A model generated the notes under the pieces. The model was not told where the DNA came from and ran no database searches. It saw only the letters and a list, made by a program, of their open reading frames with translations. Shown here one piece after another: positions 2,421 through 44,513 of a DNA stretch of 54,863 bases (within the stretch, counting starts at the first letter, position 1; each line of letters starts with the position of its first letter). The position numbers were made by a program, and so were the translations under genes. Origin of the DNA: Acidobacteriota bacterium (lineage in GTDB: Bacteria > Acidobacteriota > Terriglobia > Terriglobales > Acidobacteriaceae); NCBI GenBank assembly GCA_003225055.1, contig QIAU01000204.1, positions 1-54,863 on the forward strand. The letters are read 5' to 3'.

Positions 2421-2511
2421 CCCGACCCCTGGTATTCTCCAACTGCTCTTGCTGATCAATCCATCGCGACCATCCTCGTTTTTTCACTGATTGCGCCGCG
2501 CATCTTTACTG

Positions 2512-2576
2512 TAGAGACGCGGGTTGCCGCGTCTTAGGAAACGGGGCAGCAAGGCCGGGGCAACCCCCGTATCTAC
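2512..2576. repeat. palindromic repeat pair of the AGACGCGG family
   Basis: AGACGCGG (2515-2522) and CCGCGTCT (2527-2534) form a perfect 8-bp hairpin with a 4-base loop. A degenerate copy in the opposite orientation follows at about 2555-2576 (GGGGCAACCCCCGTATCTAC). The same family recurs near 24758, 30669, 35857, 39851 and 39914. It lies in the gap before typA and probably explains why the typA frame is open upstream of its real start. Confidence 0.7.
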
Positions 2577-7337: not shown

Positions 7338-7414
7338 GCGCCCGTAGCTCAGCTGGATAGAGCGATTGCCTCCGGAGCAATAGGTCGGGAGTTCGAATCT
7401 CTCCGGGCGCGCCA
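7338..7414 (+). tRNA. tRNA-Arg (anticodon CCG), CCA encoded
   Basis: A 77-base cloverleaf can be folded by eye. The acceptor stem GCGCCCG pairs with CGGGCGC; the D arm is GCTC/GAGC with AGCTGGATA; the anticodon arm is ATTGC/GCAAT with loop CTCCGGA, which gives anticodon CCG (Arg, codon CGG); the variable loop is AGGTC; the T arm is GGGAG/CTCTC with loop TTCGAAT; the discriminator is G followed by an encoded CCA. Degenerate copies of its last 24 or so bases, together with about six bases beyond the gene, recur downstream as far as 12.1 kb, so it looks like an integration site. Confidence 0.97.
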
Positions 7415-7466
7415 GTTCTGTTTCATTTCACGGAAATCCAGCGCCAGACGAATTGTTCATTGCCAA

Positions 7467-7793
7467 TCAGCGGATTGGAATTTCAACTACGGAGTAGGTT
7501 CCTGGCATGGCTGAGTGGATGACGGCAACGATCTCCGTCATCCTTGGCTTGATCGGGACCCACCGGTTCCTGCTAAGAATCACGCCCGCCAGCTTGCGGC
7601 CTTTCAAACTCTGCTGGTGAGGAAGGTTAGTGTCTGTGGTGAGCAATAGGTCGAAACCCGCCTCTTCCGCAGCGCGCAAGAGTTCTCCGTTCGAGAGCGT
7701 GCTCCGACCCTCCTCCCGTGCAGTCCGCACCGTATGACTCTGCAAGGCATCGTGAATCGCAACTGGAGTTCCCTGGTCGAAGAGAATTCGCGT
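7467..7793 (-). CDS. DUF5615 PIN-like toxin, apparent ACG start
   Basis: Putative toxin partner of the DUF433 gene upstream, of the PIN-like DUF5615 family (predicted RNase). Reading from 7793 gives TRILFDQGTPVAIHDALQ, then VRTAREEGRSTLSNGELL, LLLTTDTNLPHQQ and AGVILSRNRW, which is the normal domain with acidic residues in FDQG, EEG and TDTN; 108 residues. The usual stop-start overlap TAATG is here TAACG (7795-7791), so the ATG appears mutated to ACG. The first normal alternative is TTG at 7745, which would remove the first beta strand and its acidic residue. The toxin may therefore be weakly made or dead. Confidence 0.7.
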   Translation of the reverse strand, partial: TRILFDQGTPVAIHDALQSHTVRTAREEGRSTLSNGELLRAAEEAGFDLLLTTDTNLPHQQSLKGRKLAGVILSRNRWVPIKPRMTEIVAVIHSAMPGTYSVVEIPIR

Positions 7794-8026
7794 TAGCGGG
7801 AAAAAGACGGGGTTGCCAGACTCTGAGCCGTGAACTCCAAGACAGCCTTCACTTGCTCTCGGGTCAGGCCGTCATACAAGGCTACGAGCTCGTCGACAGT
7901 GAGGCCGTCCTCCAAGTTTTCGAAAACGGCCGACACAGGAATTCGCGTCCCGCGGAAAACCCAAGCTCCGCTGAGTCTTCCAGGCACACTTTCTACGGCC
8001 GGGCATTTCGACCAATCCAACGGCAT
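7793..8026 (-). CDS. DUF433 antitoxin
   Basis: Small protein of 77 residues of the DUF433 family, usually the antitoxin and DNA-binding partner of DUF5615 proteins. It shows the family hallmark VFRGTRIPVSAVFENLEDG (residues 23-41), followed by the HTH-like LTVDELVALYDGLTREQVKAVL. ATG at 8026 gives MPLDWSKCPAVES. Its TAA shares one base with the first codon of the DUF5615 reading frame, the usual coupled arrangement. It is the first cassette after tRNA-Arg. Confidence 0.85.
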   Translation of the reverse strand: MPLDWSKCPAVESVPGRLSGAWVFRGTRIPVSAVFENLEDGLTVDELVALYDGLTREQVKAVLEFTAQSLATPSFSR

Positions 8027-8102
8027 TGGTTATTGGCCTCCCGCTCCAACGATAGTCCGCGGTTCGCGGCGAGTACATACGTGGCGTGAGAAACGTACGA
8101 AA

Positions 8103-8136
8103 GAGTTCTGAAATCGTCTCTCAGGGCGCGCCAGTT
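8103..8136 (+). repeat. tRNA-Arg 3'-end repeat, copy 1
   Basis: GTTCTGAAATCG then TCTCTC then AGGGCGCGCCAGTTCT. Relative to the tRNA T-loop and acceptor end it keeps GTTC, GAA, TC, TCTC, GGGCGCGCCA and the six following bases, with four or five extra single bases. Confidence 0.85.
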
Positions 8137-8255
8137 CTCTTCGGGTCGCTCATTCCTGGCGTATTTACCGACCCGCGCCCCAGTGGTATCGTTTCACGAT
8201 GCCAAATGCGCAACGCGCGGCTGAGGGGATTCGCGGCGGTGCGAAGCTGCGCAAG

Positions 8256-8273
8256 TAGGGCGCGCCAGACTCC
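8256..8273 (+). repeat. tRNA-Arg 3'-end repeat, partial copy 2
   Basis: Only the 3' half is recognisable (TAGGGCGCGCCAGACTCC). It lies 151 bp after the matching point of copy 1, and the segment between them contains no gene that can be supported. Confidence 0.6.
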
Positions 8274-8326
8274 TTTGTACGCAACAAACACCGCGAGCAA
8301 TCATCCGTCCTATTCGCTCCATTCCT

Positions 8327-8761
8327 TCAGTGCACATTGGCAAAGGGATTCTCAATCAGGATGCCAGCGATCCGCTGGCCGGCGTTTAAATCCTCCGAGA
8401 GAATCCGGCTCGCGCCGCCCTTGACAGCTGATGAAATGATTAGGGCATCCCAGAAGCCGATTCGCGCCTCATCCTCGATTCGAAACGCGGCAGAGATTTC
8501 GACTAGGGTGGTCTCAACACACCAGATGGCATAGCTGTCTACGACAAGCCGGGCCGAATTCTTTGAAAGCGGCATCGGAATCTTCCGCGTGACGTTGACA
8601 TAGAATTCCTGGAGCACCTGGATGCTAAGAACTCCGATTCGCTCGCTCCAAAGCTCACGGAGAACGGCATTTGCGATCTCATGCTTGCTACCCGCATCCA
8701 GGTTGTGCGCATAGATCAAAACATTCGTATCGACGAATGTCCTACCGCTCGTGAAGTTCAT
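8327..8761 (-). CDS. PIN-domain toxin (VapC-like)
   Basis: Type II toxin of the PIN RNase family. The frame is open from 8806, but ATG at 8761 (MNFTSGRTFVDTNV) fits the family and overlaps the antitoxin by 20 bases. Acidic active-site residues are visible in order: D in FVDTNVLIYA, E in VLQEFYVNV, and D in FWDALIISSA with a later E/D in LSEDLNAG. At 144 residues it is full length and has no visible lesion. It is the intact toxin of cassette 2. Confidence 0.88.
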   Translation of the reverse strand: MNFTSGRTFVDTNVLIYAHNLDAGSKHEIANAVLRELWSERIGVLSIQVLQEFYVNVTRKIPMPLSKNSARLVVDSYAIWCVETTLVEISAAFRIEDEARIGFWDALIISSAVKGGASRILSEDLNAGQRIAGILIENPFANVH

Positions 8762-8996
8762 CTCGGCTGACTCGAACAACCGTACCCAAGTGAAACCCTT
8801 GATCAAGCAAGGTCAATGCTTGCCGTTCCGCGCGTTCGTAAGCCTCTTCGTCGCCGACCAGGATCTCAATCTGATGAGCCAGAAGGCCGCTGATGGACGT
8901 CGAGCGTCGAGCAGCGATAATCTTCGCCTTTCGAATGGTTTGCTTATCGAGACTAATCGTGACGTTTTGCTTTCCGTTGCTCTTTGTAGCCGACAT
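8742..8996 (-). CDS. ribbon-helix-helix antitoxin (CopG/VapB-like)
   Basis: Antitoxin and autorepressor for the PIN toxin that follows. ATG at 8996 gives MSATKSNGKQNVTISLDKQ, with the RHH core NVTISLDKQTIRKAKIIAARR and STSISGLLAHQIEILV (residues 10-45) and a charged C-terminus that should contact the toxin. Length 84 residues. An in-frame extension to 9050 exists, but the start region is a 19-bp tandem duplication that carries the AGAGGG ribosome site and ATG twice. A perfect palindrome upstream is a likely operator. Confidence 0.82.
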   Translation of the reverse strand: MSATKSNGKQNVTISLDKQTIRKAKIIAARRSTSISGLLAHQIEILVGDEEAYERAERQALTLLDQGFHLGTVVRVSRDELHER

Positions 8997-9022
8997 AGCC
9001 CTCTGTAGCCGACATAGCCCTC
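8985..9022. repeat. 19-bp tandem duplication of ribosome site and start codon
   Basis: The 19-base unit TGTAGCCGACATAGCCCTC occurs twice in direct succession (8985-9003 and 9004-9022). On the minus strand each unit holds AGAGGG, ATG and the first codons of the RHH antitoxin. The two ATGs are 19 bases apart, so the upstream one is out of frame with the antitoxin. Confidence 0.9.
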
Positions 9023-9029
9023 TATAGTG

Positions 9030-9044
9030 CACGTAATTTACGTG
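9030..9044. promoter_or_regulatory. palindromic operator candidate for the RHH antitoxin
   Basis: CACGTAA-T-TTACGTG is a perfect 7-1-7 inverted repeat just upstream of the antitoxin start (minus strand), with a further half-site TTACGTGC at 9056-9063. RHH antitoxins commonly bind such repeats to repress their own operon. Confidence 0.6.
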
Positions 9045-9152
9045 TATCACGCTTCTTACGTGCAGTCAAGCCAAAAGCACCGACAATTCTCTAAGTGTCA
9101 AGTACAGGGAGCGCCCGATTCCCCACTGCTGTCGGCAAGTCCAACGTTTCAA

Positions 9153-9186
9153 AAGTTCTGAATCGTCCCCTAGGGCGCGCCATCTT
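9153..9186 (+). repeat. tRNA-Arg 3'-end repeat, copy 3
   Basis: AAGTTCTGAATCG, CCCC and TAGGGCGCGCCATCTT. Together with copy 6 it forms a second subtype, with TAGGG in place of CAGGG and CCAT in place of CCAG. Confidence 0.8.
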
Positions 9187-9330
9187 CGTAGCAGCTCTCT
9201 TGTCAATGGCTTACAAGCATACCCTTCTCGCGGTCTAGAACTCTCCAAGTGCTCCCCTGTCTTGAAGATGGCGGGGGACGAACCAAGCAGGTTGGAACCG
9301 CATTGCCCGCCCAGCTAAAATGATGTAGCA

Positions 9331-9555
9331 ATGAAGGCGGAACCCGTGGGCCAAGTCATCGTTAAAAACCCGTCTGTCCTGAGTGGTGAACCGGTGTTTC
9401 GCGGAACCCGTGTTCCCTTTAAAGCTTTGATCGACTATCTGGAAGGCGGCGAGACTCTGGACCAGTTTTTGGAGCAATATCCCAGCGTCACACGCGAGGC
9501 CGCGATTGCTGCCATCGAAGAAGCTCGGTGCAGTTTGGTGGTGCATCTGGAATGA
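9331..9555 (+). CDS. DUF433 antitoxin, now without an intact toxin
   Basis: DUF433 protein of 74 residues (MKAEPVGQVIVKNPSVLSG). It carries the family motif PVFRGTRVPFKALIDYLEGG (residues 21-40) and the HTH-like TLDQFLEQYPSVTREAAIAAI. Its TGA overlaps the ATG of a DUF5615-like frame (ATGA at 9552-9555), as in working modules. The toxin frame, however, diverges from the family after about ten codons and stops early. It is only distantly similar to the DUF433 of cassette 1 and is on the opposite strand, so this is not a simple duplication. Confidence 0.85.
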   Translation: MKAEPVGQVIVKNPSVLSGEPVFRGTRVPFKALIDYLEGGETLDQFLEQYPSVTREAAIAAIEEARCSLVVHLE

Positions 9556-9641
9556 AAATCCTGATCGACTTGCAGTTCGAAAGCACCATTTTGAGCAATT
9601 TCACCTGTTCCGCCCCATTCTGCCTAACGTATAGACCATAG
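9552..9641 (+). pseudogene. truncated DUF5615 toxin stub
   Basis: Starts as a DUF5615 toxin (MKILIDLQFES) overlapping the DUF433 stop, then leaves the family and ends at a TAG after 29 residues. The stretch 9566-9636 resembles 12010-12075 at the far end of the array, so the truncation may mark a recombination joint and not a point lesion. Confidence 0.6.
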
Positions 9642-9874
9642 AGCGCCTGCAACTCTGGCGTTCTTACTGAGCGAGGTCACGTGCTCCTCCTGACGAGGAG
9701 TTTAGTCGGAGCTACGGGCGAACCGGTAAAACGTTCCGATCCTGCAAGGTTCAGGATGCTCCCTGGGGCGCTTCAATTGGAAGCCGCAGTTTGAGGCTCG
9801 AAGTGCGGAAGATGTTCTTGCCCGGCCCGGACACCATTTTTATACCCGCCGGAATGACACGCAGTCCAGAACCA
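9642..9874. other. intergenic part of cassette 3, no gene seen
   Basis: Between the toxin stub and repeat copy 4 there is no reading frame with recognisable content. A small hairpin CTCCTCCTGACGAGGAG at about 9683-9699 is visible. Confidence 0.5.
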
Positions 9875-9910
9875 AAGTTCTGAAATCGTCTCTCAGGACG
9901 CGCCAGTTCT
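9875..9910 (+). repeat. tRNA-Arg 3'-end repeat, copy 4
   Basis: AAAGTTCTGAAATCG, TCTCTC and AGGACGCGCCAGTTCT; nearly identical to copy 1 (one G to A change in GGGCGCG). Confidence 0.85.
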
Positions 9911-9964
9911 TTTCTCTCTTCCCTTCAGGCATTTGCAACTGAGGGCGTCCTGGCATTTTCAAAC

Positions 9965-9993
9965 CTTGCAATTACCTTCATATTCTGTCATAA
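9965..9993 (+). promoter_or_regulatory. possible promoter of parD/parE
   Basis: TTGCAA (9965-9970) and CATAAA (9988-9993) with a 17-base spacer, 10 bases before the parD ATG. Resembles a sigma-70 promoter; weak evidence. Confidence 0.35.
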
Positions 9994-10002
9994 AATGAAA
10001 CC

Positions 10003-10260
10003 ATGGCAATGACATCACTGAACATCTCGCTTCCGGAGAATCTCAAGGCCTATGTTGAAGGCCAAGTGTCTTCGGGTGATTGGGGCACCCCCAGTGAATA
10101 CATTCGGGAGCTGATCCGTCAGGACAAAGCACGCCGGATGGCCAATCTCGAACAGGAACTGCTCGCGGCGGCGAAAGGGCCAAAGATCGAGCTTTCGATT
10201 TCCGAGATCCGCAAGAAAGGTCTAGTCACAGCGCTACGCGAACGGGCTCGGCGCGCGTGA
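10003..10260 (+). CDS. parD: ParD-family antitoxin
   Basis: Type II antitoxin of the ParD/CopG family, 85 residues. The N-terminal RHH is typical: MTSLNISLPENLKAYVEG, then SGDWGTPSEYIRELIRQDKA (residues 27-46). The C-terminal arm (IELSISEIRKKGL) should wrap the toxin. ATG at 10003 is chosen; an in-frame ATG at 10009 is equally possible. Its TGA overlaps the GTG of the ParE frame (GTGA at 10257), the usual coupling. Confidence 0.92.
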   Translation: MAMTSLNISLPENLKAYVEGQVSSGDWGTPSEYIRELIRQDKARRMANLEQELLAAAKGPKIELSISEIRKKGLVTALRERARRA

Positions 10261-10576
10261 GAGCGCATCGGATTGTCTTCAGCGACGCGGAGCAGTCTGA
10301 TTGGTACGCTGAGAAAGCAGGTCGCAGTTTGGCGAAACGTTGGGAAGCAGGCGTCACTTCAACACTGCTGCAAATCCCAAGCGACCGGGAGCGGGCTCAC
10401 CCTGCGAGTTCGGCGCAGAAGAGCTTGGCGGCACGCATCGCATATCCGTCGCCGGATTTCCCAAATATCTGATCTTTTACCAAGCGCGCGAAGGCGAGAT
10501 TCTCATCCTGCGCGTTGTTCACGGCGCTCGTGACCTTGAGAGCTTGTTTTCCGAAGGCGGGTCGCCCAAGTCATAA
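10257..10576 (+). pseudogene. parE: ParE-family toxin, frameshifted
   Basis: The first half reads from GTG at 10257 (VRAHRIVFSDAEQSDWYAEK, then AKRWEAGVTSTLLQI) and the second half in another frame (NPKRPGAGSPCEFG, GGTHRISVAGFPKYLIFYQ, EILILRVVHGARDLESLF) to a TAA at 10574-10576. Together they make a normal ParE with the RelE/ParE fold, so one base is missing (or two are extra) near 10365-10371. As sequenced, the toxin is truncated after about 71 residues and the ParD is orphaned. Confidence 0.85.
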
Positions 10577-10609
10577 TTGCACAAAGGAAGCCGGGTCGGG
10601 GCCAATCAG

Positions 10610-10645
10610 CGTTCTGAAATCCGTCTCTCAGGGCGCGCCAGTTTT
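10610..10645 (+). repeat. tRNA-Arg 3'-end repeat, copy 5
   Basis: GTTCTGAAATCCG, TCTCTC and AGGGCGCGCCAGTTTTC; the same subtype as copies 1 and 4. Confidence 0.85.
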
Positions 10646-10712
10646 CACTTATGCGTTCCCGCAAAGATCAGGTCTAAGGCTTTCCGTGATATTTGGCTGC
10701 ATTTTTGCCTAT

Positions 10713-11072
10713 TCACGGCTCACCATAAACTCCCAGTGATCGGGCAACTGTTGCGAGGTGCCGGTCGGCAGTCCAGAGCAGTACATTTTCCAATCTTGCC
10801 GACGCCAGCAGATGTACATCGACCCAGCCGACGCCCCGACCCATGAGGCGATGTCGCTCGACGAATGTCATCACTTCCTCATTGTCCACGACCGGAACAG
10901 TTGGCAATCTTCGGAGCAACTGCAAGATCTCAGAGCGGCGGCTTATCGAACCACATGCCAATTCGCCGATGACAAAGGGATGGCACTGGACTTGGGCACG
11001 ATGGAGAAGCGAGACGAGCCCGAGCTGGCCATGGCGCAAATGCTCCACCCAGATCGACGTGTCAACGAGCAT
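10713..11072 (-). CDS. vapC: VapC-type PIN toxin
   Basis: Type II toxin ribonuclease of the PIN family, 119 residues, apparently intact. Active-site acids in order: D4 in MLVDTSIWVEHLR, E in FVIGELACGS near residue 37, D in GVGWVDVHLLASARL near residue 84, and D in LLWTADRHLATVA near residue 102. The ATG at 11072 shares its A with the TGA of the antitoxin (TGATG), so translation is coupled. Confidence 0.93.
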   Translation of the reverse strand: MLVDTSIWVEHLRHGQLGLVSLLHRAQVQCHPFVIGELACGSISRRSEILQLLRRLPTVPVVDNEEVMTFVERHRLMGRGVGWVDVHLLASARLENVLLWTADRHLATVARSLGVYGEP

Positions 11073-11281
11073 CAGCGGTTGGCGATAGGCACGTGAGGAC
11101 GACGTCGCCGGATTTTCCTCAGACGCGGCTCACTGCCGCCTAGCGCCGCCAGCCTCTTAGCACTCTCACGGGCGATAAGGGCTTCCAGTCCGGCGTGAAC
11201 GACAGCCGTTTTCTCCGTGATACCGCTGAGCCGTGCCGCTTGCTTCAGCAGGTCATCGTTGATGTTGAGAGTCGTACGCAT
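11072..11281 (-). CDS. vapB: VapB-type antitoxin
   Basis: Antitoxin of 69 residues for the VapC that follows. ATG at 11281 gives MRTTLNINDDLLKQAARLSG; the frame is open a little further (to 11308), but that part runs into the operator. The N-terminal DNA-binding strand and helix (RTTLNINDDLLKQA) are followed by TAVVHAGLEALIARESA and a basic tail (RLRKIRRRRP). Likely autoregulated through the TATGCAT repeats at its start. Confidence 0.9.
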   Translation of the reverse strand: MRTTLNINDDLLKQAARLSGITEKTAVVHAGLEALIARESAKRLAALGGSEPRLRKIRRRRPHVPIANR

Positions 11282-11310
11282 ATGCATCAGTATGCATAAA
11301 TCAGGCATAC
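11279..11310. promoter_or_regulatory. vapBC operator candidate
   Basis: TATGCAT at 11281-11287 and TATGCATA at 11291-11298, with GGCATAC at 11304-11310, overlap and precede the vapB start codon. The two self-complementary TATGCAT boxes suit binding of a dimeric VapB. Confidence 0.5.
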
Positions 11311-11444
11311 GATTTCAAGGGGGGACAATGGCGGACCAAGCGTAGGCTGCGCCACTTTCCTCCGCAAGCTCTCCAAGCTGGGGCTGTGTCAGTCGCAAAT
11401 TCACTCACTCCTGACGCCGCCAAGGCGCTGCCGGGCGACCTAGC

Positions 11445-11783
11445 TCACTTTTGCTTGAACGGAATCACGGCGCTCGGACGGGCGCCTTCCTGTGTTCTTG
11501 CTGTTTCATGGCCTGATTCAGCCAGTCGCAAGAAGCGCGGAGACACGTTCCAGCGATGACCGTCGTCTGTGATGACGGTGACCGACTTTTTGTTATAGCG
11601 AGTCAGGATTCCGAACACAGGAAGTCCACCCTGAGGCTCGAACGTAACGCGATCTCCGATCCGGAATTGCAGCATGGCTTTGTGGGCCTGCACTTGACTT
11701 AATAGTCTGAGGCGCTGCACGATGCGATGATTCAAGTCTATGAGTTCAGCTTCGGACAGATGATCTATGCTGATGCGATTCAT
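11445..11783 (-). CDS. conserved hypothetical protein with SH3-like core
   Basis: Not assigned a function. ATG at 11783 (MNRISIDHLSEAELIDLN) gives 112 residues; the frame upstream to 11858 looks non-coding. A helical N-terminus (LNHRIVQRLRLLSQV) precedes a beta-rich core with FRIGDRVTFEPQGG, VFGILTRYNKKSVTVITDDG and WNVSPRFLR, which resembles a small SH3-like or Tudor-like barrel. I have the impression of similar short proteins in other bacteria but cannot name the family. It is the only gene of the array that is not clearly a toxin or antitoxin, and no partner is seen beside it. Confidence 0.7.
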   Translation of the reverse strand: MNRISIDHLSEAELIDLNHRIVQRLRLLSQVQAHKAMLQFRIGDRVTFEPQGGLPVFGILTRYNKKSVTVITDDGHRWNVSPRFLRLAESGHETARTQEGARPSAVIPFKQK

Positions 11784-11906
11784 GTTCCTTTGCCGGAGGC
11801 GAAAACTTTTGCGCTGGCCGCATAATTCTGCACGGTTCTCTTGGACAAGCTGGATCATAAGCCAGAATCGAGATGGTCGAAACCGGTGAAATTTCCTCCA
11901 ACGCGA

Positions 11907-11942
11907 GGGTTCTAAAATCGTCCTCTAGGGCGCGCCATTCCT
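11907..11942 (+). repeat. tRNA-Arg 3'-end repeat, copy 6
   Basis: GGGTTCTAAAATCG, TCCTC and TAGGGCGCGCCATTCCT; the same subtype as copy 3. Confidence 0.8.
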
Positions 11943-12009
11943 ACATTTTTCACTCGCTCAAAGATCACGTCGTAGGGCTTTCTGCAAGTAGGCGTGATAT
12001 TTACGGCGT

Positions 12010-24757: not shown

Positions 24758-24815
24758 GAGACGCGGCTTGCCGCATCTTTGCGCGTCTCTACGGGAGAGG
24801 CCGGGCACGGTCTCT
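24758..24815. repeat. palindromic repeats of the GAGACGCGG and GAGACCGG families
   Basis: CGAGACGCGGCTTGCCGC (24758-24775) and GCGCGTCTCTAC (24781-24792) are followed by GAGAGGCCGGGCACGG and TCTCT (24795-24815). The first is the same element as at 39851; the second resembles the palindrome at 44492. They sit exactly where the glycosyltransferase remnant loses its reading frame. Confidence 0.65.
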
Positions 24816-30155: not shown

Positions 30156-30747
30156 CTACTTCACCACGATATTTACCAACTTCCCGGGCACCACGATCAC
30201 TTTGACCACCTGCTTGCCTGCTATCGCCGCTTTCACTTTTTCGTCAGCCAGAGCGCGTTCGCGGACAAATGTATCGTCCGAATCCGCGGGCACAAGAATA
30301 CGGCTGCGCCGTTTCCCGTTGATCTGCACCGGAATCTCGATCTCTTCTTCTTTGGCCAGCGCCGGATCGGATTTCGGCCATGGCGTCCGCAATAGATTTT
30401 CTTTTTGGCCCAGCATCTCCCAGAGCTCGTGCGCCAGATAAGGAGCAAAGGGAGCGAGCAGGAGCACAAGATCGCGTTGTACTTCCGCGAGCAATGGCCC
30501 CGGGATGGTGTCGCTCTTGTCCTCGACGGCATATAGTTCGTTGACCAACTCCATGATGGCGGCAATCGAGGTATTGAAATGCCACCGCCCCTGGAAGTCG
30601 TCGCTGACCCGCTTGATGGTCTGGTGAAGCTTGCGCTGGATCTTGCGAGCTTCCGGCGGTAGGAACCTGGCTTGCCCCGTCTCACCGGGAGACGCGGGGA
30701 GCCGCTTATCCGCCGAGGCCCCTGTACACGCGCCCGAGGAAACGTTC
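30156..30747 (-). CDS. leuS: leucyl-tRNA synthetase, C-terminal part (+1 frame)
   Basis: Continues LeuRS in the +1 frame relative to the first part. The anticodon-binding domain reads [59 protein letters not shown] and the C-terminal domain ending in [17 protein letters not shown]. The join with the first part lies in a palindromic repeat at 30669-30703. In-frame TTG codons at 30758 and 30749 could restart translation inside the first part, but no good ribosome site precedes them. The upper bound given is therefore approximate. Confidence 0.75.
30669..30703. repeat. palindromic GAGACGCGG-family repeat inside leuS
   Basis: GGCTTGCCCCGTCTC (30669-30683) is an imperfect reverse complement of GAGACGCGGGGAGCC (30689-30703). 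It occupies the linker between the catalytic core and anticodon-binding domain of LeuRS, beside the premature TAA at 30706-30708. Confidence 0.7.
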
Positions 30748-32688
30748 AATTCCTTCAATGCCGGTGTCCTGCCAGTCCAGGTCGCGGTCGGGAGGCGCTG
30801 CGAAGAGGCTGTAGAGCCGCGCAGCATCGGCGCCGTAACGGGCAATCATCTCGTCGGGCGTGACCACGTTGCCCAGGCTTTTCGACATCTTGGCGCCATC
30901 TTTAATCACCATGCCCTGGGTGAAGAGACGCTGCACCGGCTCGTCGTTCTCGACCAATCCCATGTCGCGCATGACCTTGGTCCAAAAGCGCGAATAGATG
31001 AGGTGCAAGATGGCGTGTTCGACGCCGCCGATGTACTGGTCGATGGGAAACCAGTAGTCAATAATCTTGCCGTCAAATGGCGCTTTGTCGTTGAGCGCGT
31101 CGGCGTAGCGGTAGAAGTACCAGGACGAATCTACGAAGGTGTCCATGGTATCAGTCTCGCGCCGCGCCGGCCCGCCGCACTTCGGACAGGTCGTGTTGAG
31201 AAATTCCGGGACACGCGCCAGAGGCGAACCGCCGCTCAAGGTGATCTCGACGTTGTCGGGCAAAATGACCGGCAAATCTTTCTCAGGGACAGGCACGATG
31301 CCGTCTTTTTCGCAGTAGAGCATCGGAATCGGGGTGCCCCAGTAGCGCTGCCGCGAGACCCCCCAATCCTTCAAGCGATAGGTGACGGTTGGCTTGCCAA
31401 AGCCGTGTTTCTGGGCGTACTCCGCCATCTTCGCGATAGCGTCTTCACAGCTCAGACCGTTAAACGGTCCGGAGTTGATGACAACGCCATCCGTCGTGGT
31501 AGAGGGCGCCTTCTGAACGTCTACCGGCTCGCTGGCCGTAGGCGGCTGGTTTACCTGCCGAATTGGCAAGTCGTATTTCTTGGCGAACTCATGGTCGCGC
31601 TCATCATGCGCCGGCACCGACATGATCGCGCCTGTGCCGTAGTCCATCAAAATATAGTTTGCAACCCAGATCGGCAGCTTTTCGCGGTTGTACGGATTGA
31701 TCGCAAACCGCCCGGTATTGACGCCGTGCTTCTCAATCTCGCCAAAATCACCTAGTTCTTTAGCTTTTCGCTGCTCCGCCATCATCTGCGCAACTTTGGC
31801 GCTCAGATCAGCATCGCCCGCATCGAGATCGGCTACCAGCGGATGTTCAGGGGCCAGCTGGACCGAGGTCGCGCCGAAGATCGTGTCCACTCGCGTGGTG
31901 AAGACTGTGATGGTCGAGCCGGCAGGACCGGCCTGACCGTCGAGCTTGAAATCCACCAGTGCGCCCTCGCTGCGGCCGATCCAGTTGCGCTGCATGGTAA
32001 CGACTTTTTCCGGCCAATCGGGGAGCCTGTCCAAATCGCGCAGCAACTCTTCCGAGTAATTTGTGATGCGCAAGAACCACTGCTCCAGGTCACGCTGCTC
32101 CACCGGCGTGTCTTCATGGCGCCAGCAGCAGCCGTCCACAACCTGCTCGTTGGCCAGAACGGTGGCGCATTTCGGACACCAGTTCACCCGGCTTTTTTTG
32201 CGATAGGCCAAGCCACGCTCGTACATTTTCAGGAAGAACCACTGGTTCCAGCGGTAGTACTCGGGGAAGCAGGTGGTGACTTCGCGCGACCAGTCGTAGG
32301 CGAAACCCAGGCGGTTCATCTGCGCCTTCATGTTGGCGATGTTGCGCAGCGTCCACTGGCGCGGCGGGGTGTTGTTCGATATGGCGGCATTCTCTGCCGG
32401 CAGACCAAAGGAATCCCAGCCCATGGGATGGAGCACGTTGTAGCCGTTCATCCACATGTAGCGGGCAAGTGCGTCACCGATGGAGTAGTTGCGCACATGT
32501 CCCATGTGCAGCGCGCCGGAGGGATAAGGCAGCATTTCCAGCACGTAATATTTGGGTTTGGTGGAGGCAGGCTCGGCGCGGTAGAGCGACGGATCCTGCT
32601 GCCAGCGCTCGTACCATTTAGTCTCGAAGCTGTGCGGGTCGAAGCGCTCCTCCCGTGGTGTCTTGTTCACCTGCGTTTCCTGCGGCAT
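30706..32688 (-). CDS. leuS: leucyl-tRNA synthetase, N-terminal 660 residues
   Basis: Catalytic and editing part of LeuRS. ATG 32688 ([20 protein letters not shown]). The class I HIGH motif is [18 protein letters not shown] near residue 57; the zinc-type loop [15 protein letters not shown] and the large CP1 editing domain follow ([35 protein letters not shown]); then the KMSKS loop [17 protein letters not shown] near 610. The frame ends at a TAA after VYRGLGG, about 20-30 residues before the anticodon-binding helices expected next, which are found in another frame. LeuRS is essential, so either there is an indel error, or the enzyme is made in two parts, or another leuS exists elsewhere. Confidence 0.92.
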
Positions 32689-32773
32689 ATGAGAAATTAT
32701 TTGCGCTGCGGATAAACTTTAATTTTACAACGAGGCAGGTGAATCCCCGGAGAGGAAGGCGCGGCTAGCGCGG

Positions 32774-33584
32774 CTATTCCAGTTTCAGGGTAAGCGCCGG
32801 AAAAGCCAGTCCCTCGACTTCGGCGGTCCAACGATCGCCGGGGCCGGTCAGGTGACCAGCCGTAAGCGTCCCGGAGCTGACGATTTTGCCCGCGCTCAAC
32901 GGCTCGTCTGGAAATCGCCGCTGAACGGCGCTGCTGACTTCGGCTAGACACAGCGCGGGACTGCGAAGACAGTTCCTTCCCGACCCCTCTTCGACCAGCT
33001 CGCCATCCTTTTTCATAGGTAATTTTGAAGCGTGCGAGGTCATCGGGGAGCGCGGGAATCAGCACCGAGTGCACGGGCAGGCGCTCGCCAATTACCAGTG
33101 CCGCATGAAGTCTAAAGGCGGCGACGAAGTCGCTCGGCTGAAACTTCCATTCTGGAAAAGGACAGTCAATGATTTCGAAGCCTAGCGCTAGCCAATCCCT
33201 GGCAGCGAGGGCAGCGGGAGCATCGGCGCCGGCAGTGATAGGTTGCTTCAGGCCGCAAACAATTTCCGGTTCGATCTTCAGAGACCGAGCATGAGGGACT
33301 GACCCGGTTGCGGAGTTGGCATCGCTCTGATGGACGGTGTCGTCATACATGTGTCCCCAAACCAGGGTCTCCAGCTTGAGCACGCGCCAGACCGCCTTGT
33401 TGGCATAGCCCACCTTGCTGCCGACTGATTTGTGGCCGGCCGCCTGGCGCCACTGCTTGAGTTTGTTCTCGACTTCATACGCTCGATTGAGGTCAAAGCC
33501 GGGACACGCCGATGGAGGGACAGCAACCATCTGGCCGGTTTCCTAGGCCGACATGAGCTGGCGGGCAAGAGCTTCGATATCCAT
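32774..33584 (-). pseudogene. 2-keto-4-pentenoate hydratase-like gene, broken
   Basis: A fumarylacetoacetate-hydrolase-fold hydratase of aromatic catabolism type can be read from ATG 33584 (MDIEALARQLMSA), but a TAG follows codon 13. It continues in frame with AYEVENKLKQWRQAAGHKSVG, KVGYANKAVWRVLKLETLVW, KIEPEIVCGLKQPI and WLALGFEIIDCPFPEWKFQPSD. Near 33020 it shifts frame and resumes with KKDGELVEEGSGRNCL, LSAGKIVSSGTLTAGHL and GLAFPALTLKLE. The protein would be about 268 residues. One nonsense codon and one frameshift make it non-functional unless translation starts at the later ATG and slips. Confidence 0.82.
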
Positions 33585-35773: not shown

Positions 35774-35856
35774 ACCAGCACTCTCCGATCATTAGGGTTC
35801 ATTAGGATCAGAAATATTGATGCCCATGGAAATCTTGGGATGCATAAATTCCGTGG

Positions 35857-35899
35857 CAGAGACGCGGCTTGCCCTGCGGCTTGCATCTTCCGTGTCTGT
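35857..35899. repeat. degenerate GAGACGCGG-family repeat
   Basis: CAGAGACGCGGCTTGC, then GCGGCTTGCATC and CGTGTCTG: two partial half-copies of the palindrome, in the gap before aroF. It accounts for the open frame upstream of the aroF start. Confidence 0.55.
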
Positions 35900-39810: not shown

Positions 39811-39850
39811 TCGAATTCCCTCGCAGCGGTATTAAAGCACACGCACGGGT

Positions 39851-39935
39851 AGAGACGCGGCTTGCCGCGTCTGCCAGTTGGGAAGACCTCGAGCTCCAAC
39901 CATCGTGATGCTTGAGACGCGGCAAGCCGCGTCTC
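39851..39935. repeat. pair of GAGACGCGG palindromes, facing copies
   Basis: AGACGCGG-CTTG-CCGCGTCT at 39853-39872 and GAGACGCGG-CAAG-CCGCGTCTC at 39914-39935, about 40 bases apart and mirror images of each other. This is the best-preserved example of the family in the window. The second copy reaches the stop codon of the bacilliredoxin gene. Confidence 0.85.
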
Positions 39936-40384
39936 TATCGCGGAGATTTGTTAGCGCGCTGACCTAGCGGTTTGGCGCAGAACTTATCAAACACGGTTTT
40001 GAGTTCGCTGGCCAGGTCCACGGCTTCGCGGTGTTCGATGTCGCTGCGCTGCATCATGTAGAGGAGTTGGCCATCGCGCAGCAACCCGATTGACGGCGAC
40101 GAGGGCGGGTAGCCAACAAAGTAGGAGCGTGCCCGGTCGGTCGCTTCTTTGTCTTGTCCCGCAAAAACGGTGAATGCCTGATCAGGCTTGGTGGAATGCT
40201 CGAGTGCGAGGCGGACGGCTGGACGCATGCGGCCCGCGGCACATCCACACACGGAATTTACCACCAACATGGTTATGCCCGGGCGAGCCAGCGCCTGGTC
40301 GACCTCAACAGCCGTGCGGGCTTCTTTAATTCCCAAACGGGTGAGTTCTTCACGCATGGGAAGGATCATGATCTCCGCGTACAT
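39935..40384 (-). CDS. bacilliredoxin (BrxA/BrxB, YphP/YqiW family)
   Basis: Thiol-disulfide protein that removes low-molecular-weight thiols from proteins in Bacillus; in a Gram-negative phylum the cofactor thiol is uncertain. 149 residues, ATG 40384 (MYAEIMILPMREELTRLG). The catalytic CGC motif is VVNSVCGCAAGRMRP near residue 45. Other family motifs are VFAGQDKEATDRARSYF and YPPSSPSIGLLRDGQLLYMM. The last residues (GQRANKSPR) approach the palindromic repeat that overlaps the stop. Confidence 0.92.
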   Translation of the reverse strand: MYAEIMILPMREELTRLGIKEARTAVEVDQALARPGITMLVVNSVCGCAAGRMRPAVRLALEHSTKPDQAFTVFAGQDKEATDRARSYFVGYPPSSPSIGLLRDGQLLYMMQRSDIEHREAVDLASELKTVFDKFCAKPLGQRANKSPR

Positions 40385-44491: not shown

Positions 44492-44513
44492 GAGACCGGG
44501 CACGACCGGTCTC
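44492..44513. repeat. GAGACCGG palindrome
   Basis: GAGACCGG-GCACGA-CCGGTCTC is a perfect 8-bp stem with a 6-base loop, 48 bases before the trigger factor start. It is related to the degenerate copy at 24795-24815. Confidence 0.75.

Follow-up and report, generated by a model that had tools for sequence, protein, structure and literature searches.

An apparent split of leuS at a domain border

In the window, as we call the whole 54,863-nt stretch of DNA analysed here, which comes from a soil acidobacterium, the gene leuS appears to be cut in two at a palindromic repeat, which raises the question of whether this is a true two-piece LeuRS or a fault in the assembled sequence. LeuRS is essential, a point of an earlier sequence-only reading of the window that we accept as established knowledge. 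That reading also held that the LeuRS frame (minus strand, 32688..30706, 660 aa) closes with a TAA at 30706-30708 and that the anticodon domain lies in the +1 frame, and both observations are borne out by the ORFs and by Pfam: the first ORF has PF13603 and PF00133, the editing and catalytic domains, and the +1 frame ORF at 30845..30156, which overlaps it by 140 nt, carries PF08264 (Anticodon_1). The site is confirmed as an inter-domain linker, at the border of the catalytic core and the anticodon-binding domain (Table 1). The same reading proposed looking for a second leuS; we find none in the same assembly (7.41 Mb in 301 contigs, 98.73% complete), in which five further matches, all weak and partial, presumably represent other class I synthetases.

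Table 1. Positions of the leuS parts, the REP-like repeats and a frameshifted neighbouring gene in the window.
Feature	Position	Strand	Basis
leuS part 1, catalytic and editing domains, 660 aa, TAA end	30706..32688	-	ORF, PF13603 and PF00133
leuS part 2, anticodon-binding and C-terminal region, +1 frame, 162 aa from KIQRKL	30159..30644	-	ORF list, PF08264; listed ORF reaches 30845
Inter-part linker, 88 nt, no multiple of 3	30645..30732	-	linker extraction
Frame-loss interval; hydrophobic residue after RVYR absent	30711..30723	-	comparison with relatives
REP-like unit 1, GTAG tag at 30659-30662, TT loop, one arm degraded	30659..30683	+	core match
REP-like unit 2, degraded, without tag; contains TAA, read GAT AAG in anticodon-domain frame	30689..30710	-	core match
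REP family copy	2511..2535	+	core match
REP family copy	24758..24779	+	core match
REP half copy	35854..35873	+	repeat listing
Inverted REP pair; outer arms 23 nt, fully complementary; GTAG kept left, altered right	39849..39937	.	core match
FAA-hydrolase-like gene beside leuS, frameshifted near A5 run	32697-33530 and 32774-33043	-	domain search and homologue

The frame is lost upstream of the repeat

The sequence-only reading described an inverted repeat at the join. Its arms, GGCTTGCCCCGTCTC (30669-30683) and GAGACGCGGGGAGCC (30689-30703), are present and pair at 12 of 15 positions as counted by eye, but they are the inner halves of two separate palindromic units of 22 nt (30662-30683 and 30689-30710), each of which differs by three mismatches from the family core GAGACGNGGCNNGCCNCGTCTC. 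The offsets of the two units in the 88-nt linker, 22 and 49, place both in the anticodon-domain frame. The loss of frame must then fall after the Arg codon of RVYR and before the first REP base, at 30711-30723, just upstream of the unit 2 that holds the TAA. Judged from these frames, the lesion can be placed in the 13 nt before the REP pair and not as an indel within the hairpin, and the REP would not itself have shifted the leuS frame.

Comparison with relatives indicates that more than the frame has gone. The residue right after RVYR is Phe in 79, Leu in 15, Tyr in 4 and Ile in 1 of 99 distinct in-frame linkers, with Val in one (L271) of eight further linkers; the window has Gly. Along with the frame, the window lacks the helix end that is usual in these linkers, commonly FxxRN (RN in 53 of the 99). 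Two candidate accounts of the lesion were tried and set aside: a 31-nt deletion, drawn from an alignment of GASAD with GTSAD of L007, is suggestive only, with a net length difference to L007 of 2 nt, and there is no gene-level chimera of the contig, because L070, L057 and L056 keep the gene order of the window on both sides of leuS. Quick trees group the N part of leuS with L070 (support 0.97) and the C part with L008, L052 and L053 (support 0.77).

Repeated occupation of the leuS linker

A comparison of the linker in relatives had been proposed along with the split. We extracted 109 linkers from 115 loci (of the remaining six, L082 is truncated and the rest are not leuS); the contig scan for leuS loci took the best 80 of 100 loci. 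The linker is in frame in 106 of the 109, and dropping seven duplicate genomes leaves 99 in-frame linkers, all distinct in sequence. The three out of frame are those of the window, L038 and L115, the last with an N run ahead of the linker. One or two REP cores (up to two mismatches) are present in 13 of the 99, and the frame is unbroken across the repeat in each of these linkers; L047 and L050, counted here as REP-bearing, have N-run breaks elsewhere in leuS. In 12 of the 13 the repeat is read in the codon phase (V)ET..A.SL, as in the window, and L096 has another phase. Thirty further leuS loci gave eight new linkers, one of which (L269) has a REP pair.

The repeat is strongly concentrated in this linker. 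Across 101 loci, and allowing up to two mismatches, we find 16 matches in 9,512 nt of linker versus 2 in 238,862 nt of the rest of leuS, 11 in 349,871 nt of flanking coding sequence and 28 in 100,744 nt of flanking non-coding sequence (Fisher p = 3e-21, 6e-19 and 4e-7, respectively, values that take the matches as independent though some share descent). The reversed control pattern, at up to three mismatches, gives none in the linker, one in the rest of leuS and four in the flanks. On a tree of 94 rows the REP label (13 rows including the window) requires 10 gains or losses, at least 7 of them forced by well-supported branches, and shuffled labels require 12.4 changes on average, with 13 of 500 shuffles as low as the observed number. 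This tree excluded L115, L038, L082, L025, L034, four loci with short upstream sequence (including L060) and the seven duplicate genomes, and the position of L050 in it is unsure because the segment crosses an N gap. The REP-like repeat recurrently settles in the leuS linker.

The in-frame REPs are well supported by sequence and should be translated into protein. The REP-bearing LeuRS of L074, modelled with AlphaFold2, has a mean pLDDT of 80.7, and values fall below 50 at residues 667-674 and 676-686. These residues take in REP unit 1, the spacer and the beginning of unit 2, and confident helices flank them at 643-662 and 691-712. This model suggests that the linker carrying the REPs is probably disordered.

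A second synthetase linker in argS

The argS gene provides another example. In the genome of the window, one further REP falls in the middle of a conserved domain, in frame inside the DALR domain of argS (G000:C13:33536-33557, which is L121:1501-1522), and the same holds for L190, L199, L200, L202, L221-L224, L241 and L242, among others. Across 55 argS loci, a set nearest to two REP-bearing queries whose REP frequency is not family-wide, 4,074 nt of linker contain 21 REP matches (up to three mismatches) in 20 loci, versus none in 91,080 nt of other argS sequence and two in 158,451 nt of flank, and the linkers are in frame in all 55. In most cases the argS REP occupies a single fixed codon position in different genera, and its stems differ yet remain palindromic more often than in shuffles. 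In the 24 argS linkers of 78 nt with the fixed site, palindrome pairs are complementary in 68% of cells, compared with 57% when the 3' letters are redealt (maximum of 2,000: 63%) and 17-34% when the registers are slid by 1-9. This pattern would fit an old insertion that decays and is restored by gene conversion or by inserting anew, and a function of the putative hairpin is possible.

A dispersed palindromic family

The sequence-only reading had placed the repeat family at five other sites in the window, which fits the copies at 2514, 24758, 39852, 39914 and 44492, plus the half copy at 35854. Together with the two leuS units, the first five make seven core matches (up to three mismatches) in the window, versus 0.10 expected. 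The genome has 46 sites within two mismatches of GAGACGNGGCWWGCCNCGTCTC, versus none for the reversed pattern, and the palindromic family is beyond chance. Among 51 copies taken with their flanks, 17 have GTA at the 5' side only, 6 have TAC at the 3' side only, 2 have both and 26 have neither, and, of the 23 copies with a single tag, 14 have a TT loop when read from the tagged end. Close pairs (up to two mismatches) number seven, and inspection by eye shows more that are degraded. The 53 rows, of which two repeat window sites, divide under a crude ORF caller into 41 in intergenic DNA, 7 within a called ORF and 5 at an edge.

Some neighbouring observations concern other repeats. The match at 44492-44513 is a divergent palindrome, GAGACCGGGCACGACCGGTCTC, with its own arm sequence, close to where the trigger factor ORF starts. 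In the family members G004 and G019 there are many exact matches to GTAGAGACGNNGCNNGCNNCGTCT (20+26 and 16+7 on the two strands), and the same-genus G001 has none. At 7398-11946 of the window, a family of direct repeats of 23-39 nt (GTTCTGAAATCGTCTCTCAGGGCGCGCCAG and variants) lies in a stretch with small ORFs that look, by eye, toxin-antitoxin-like.

Artefact or real lesion

A REP-like palindrome pair lies in a probably disordered linker between the LeuRS catalytic core and the anticodon-binding domain, and we propose that the repeats in the same linker of relatives, being in frame, should become protein sequence. In the assembled sequence of the window, a small out-of-frame lesion in the 13 nt upstream of the REP pair leads the frame to a stop inside the repeat. 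This lesion would most likely be absent from the working gene of the population and would reflect faulty assembly, or the collapse of a minority variant, at a place rich in hairpins. The repeat itself is probably a non-autonomous mobile element, copied by some enzyme, and may persist where it is because the linker can accommodate additional residues.

Several observations bear on whether the lesion is real. Relatives carry the same repeat in an unbroken leuS, and the break in the window is therefore most likely an error of the assembled sequence. An artefact is also favoured because leuS is essential and single, because relaxed constraint past the break is not seen in the anticodon domain (mean residual +0.035, which ranks 93 of 101 when counted from the lowest), because the neighbouring FAA-hydrolase-like gene is frameshifted as well, and because other drafts are broken. 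The homologue of this neighbour in G007 (L188) is in one frame, the gene being present in 2 of 25 genomes searched, own genome included. Frame breaks occur in 7 of 102 other leuS loci at scattered positions, three at N runs and four without N there. One of these four, L038 (L038:4100-4206), lacks the repeat and has its leuS linker broken by a different deletion, likewise out of frame.

Other observations count against an artefact. The lesion exceeds a plain one-base homopolymer slip, with the conserved residue and the helix end lost too, and leuS breaks are rare in species-representative genomes. In a survey of 130 family genomes (125 with a match), in which the remaining short or partial rows were checked only in part, a linker-broken leuS is found, among the matches listed, in the window only; among these matches, leuS is interrupted by N runs in G065 and G110, and G107:C36 (L277) has a lone in-frame TGA at about residue 191 (L070 numbering), without N runs. 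The N runs and the lone TGA weaken the base rate of N-free breaks in representative genomes and so lower the odds of an artefact. The argS rows listed are nearly stop-free, with no internal stop among the matches listed except in one 25-aa fragment. Reasoning from base rates, we consider it moderately probable that the leuS split is an assembly lesion or a collapsed minority variant; the lesion, if real, is probably recent. The suggestion of a sequencing indel in the hairpin thus stands in one part, in that a fault of assembly or sequencing has to be reckoned with, but not in the other, as the lesion lies in the 13 nt before the hairpin and a conserved residue is gone.

If the lesion is real, leuS may be an inactivated allele, either a dead minority-strain copy that entered the contig or one accompanied by a functional leuS in the unassembled part. 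An assembly of 301 contigs at 98.73% completeness and a second frameshifted gene next door speak for this reading, but with no second leuS found and no relaxed constraint seen after the break we regard it as unlikely. It is distinctly improbable that a real out-of-frame deletion beside the REP pair left a two-piece LeuRS that assembles, the second piece starting inside the first ORF. Both parts do retain their domains and conservation, no other leuS was found, and the excerpts of PMC4975002 offer the precedent of a split LeuRS in Aquifex. Candidate starts for the second piece exist at ATG 30827, TTG 30758 and TTG 30749, besides the TTG at 30845 that opens the listed ORF. However, these candidates overlap conserved catalytic-domain codons, the AGGA seen by eye upstream of TTG 30758 may be chance, and no ribosome-binding site is apparent by eye ahead of ATG 30827. 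The conserved residue after RVYR is also lost, and a single genome shows the split: all 99 distinct in-frame linkers, including that of the same-genus L070, are fused, and L038 is broken by another deletion. REP hairpins might provoke real deletions, but that the REP pair provoked one here which cut LeuRS, with both pieces made and assembling as a gene fission caught in the act, is very doubtful.

We likewise consider it very improbable that ribosomes get past a real lesion by a +1 frameshift ahead of the REP hairpin. The 140-nt ORF overlap is followed by a hairpin, and the 60-nt REP pair folds at -28.9 kcal/mol (z = -1.84), but in a 76-nt context the z-score is -0.42, so that the hairpin is unexceptional in its wider context, and the arrangement is found in no relative, so that no slip site is demonstrably conserved. 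The sequence-only reading had offered a two-piece LeuRS and frameshifting as outcomes, and neither gains positive support, given one genome, no clear restart site and fused relatives. Its mechanism, in which insertion of the REP itself broke the leuS frame, is hardly credible: the stop codon does fall within the second unit, but the disruption precedes both units, which stand in the anticodon-domain frame and share the phase of 12 of the 13 relatives with an intact REP-bearing linker; with the repeat in 13 of 99 unbroken linkers, we disfavour insertion as the cause of the split. An artefact in the assembled sequence is the reading that we prefer.

Relation to known systems

The notable result is that two essential synthetase genes each have a linker which, across a bacterial family, is occupied repeatedly by one REP-like family, and the preference of the repeat for the leuS linker is a real finding even with the split an artefact. 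Recurrent linker REPs are a natural experiment in which small mobile palindromes would turn into protein sequence. They also call for caution, as draft-genome linkers with repeats can mimic gene fission.

In the literature on REPs in Acidobacteria, on Rickettsia palindromic elements (RPEs) and on REPs in synthetase linkers, PMC3733652 is relevant, and the present case is not described in its excerpts. These excerpts report GTAG and CGTC REPs inside ORFs, including tRNA synthetases of three species, and propose that they are tolerated in flexible linkers. The putatively translated repeats found here are a fresh instance of such intragenic REPs. Like the GTAG REPs of the same excerpts, the present family has GTAG at one end (25 of the 51 copies carry GTA 5' and/or TAC 3'), a short stem, a dispersed, multicopy and mainly intergenic distribution and sometimes opposed pairs. 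In contrast to the REPs excerpted there, it has other hosts and another stem, and it recurs in one leuS linker and at one argS site across many genomes. It also differs from GTAG REPs in that the tag is absent from 26 of the 51 copies. Only one of the seven close pairs has both outer tags, which may set them apart from GTAG REP dimers, and for the RAYT transposase associated with GTAG REPs, none of the 30 loci examined of 42 genomic Y1_Tnp matches has the repeat nearby. By the same excerpts, Koribacter has transposases with terminal inverted repeats, and those of PMC6006769 place one class of such transposases partly in Acidobacteria. RPEs are likewise dispersed palindromes that lie in frame within genes, but they differ in host and sequence, and RPE-4 and RPE-6 of R. 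conorii are CGTC and not GTAG repeats (PMC3733652, excerpts).

For the split itself, the comparison is with Aquifex aeolicus, in which LeuRS is likewise in two pieces (PMC4975002 and PMC9976931, excerpts). The sequence-only reading was right that Aquifex is cut at another point: the cut there is in the leucine-specific domain, going by the title of Ma et al. 2006 as cited in PMC4975002, whereas here it falls after KMSKS and before the anticodon domain. Unlike that of Aquifex, the apparent split in the window comes without a clear restart signal and without a supporting relative. If true, it would add a further kind of LeuRS in two pieces, divided where two domains meet.
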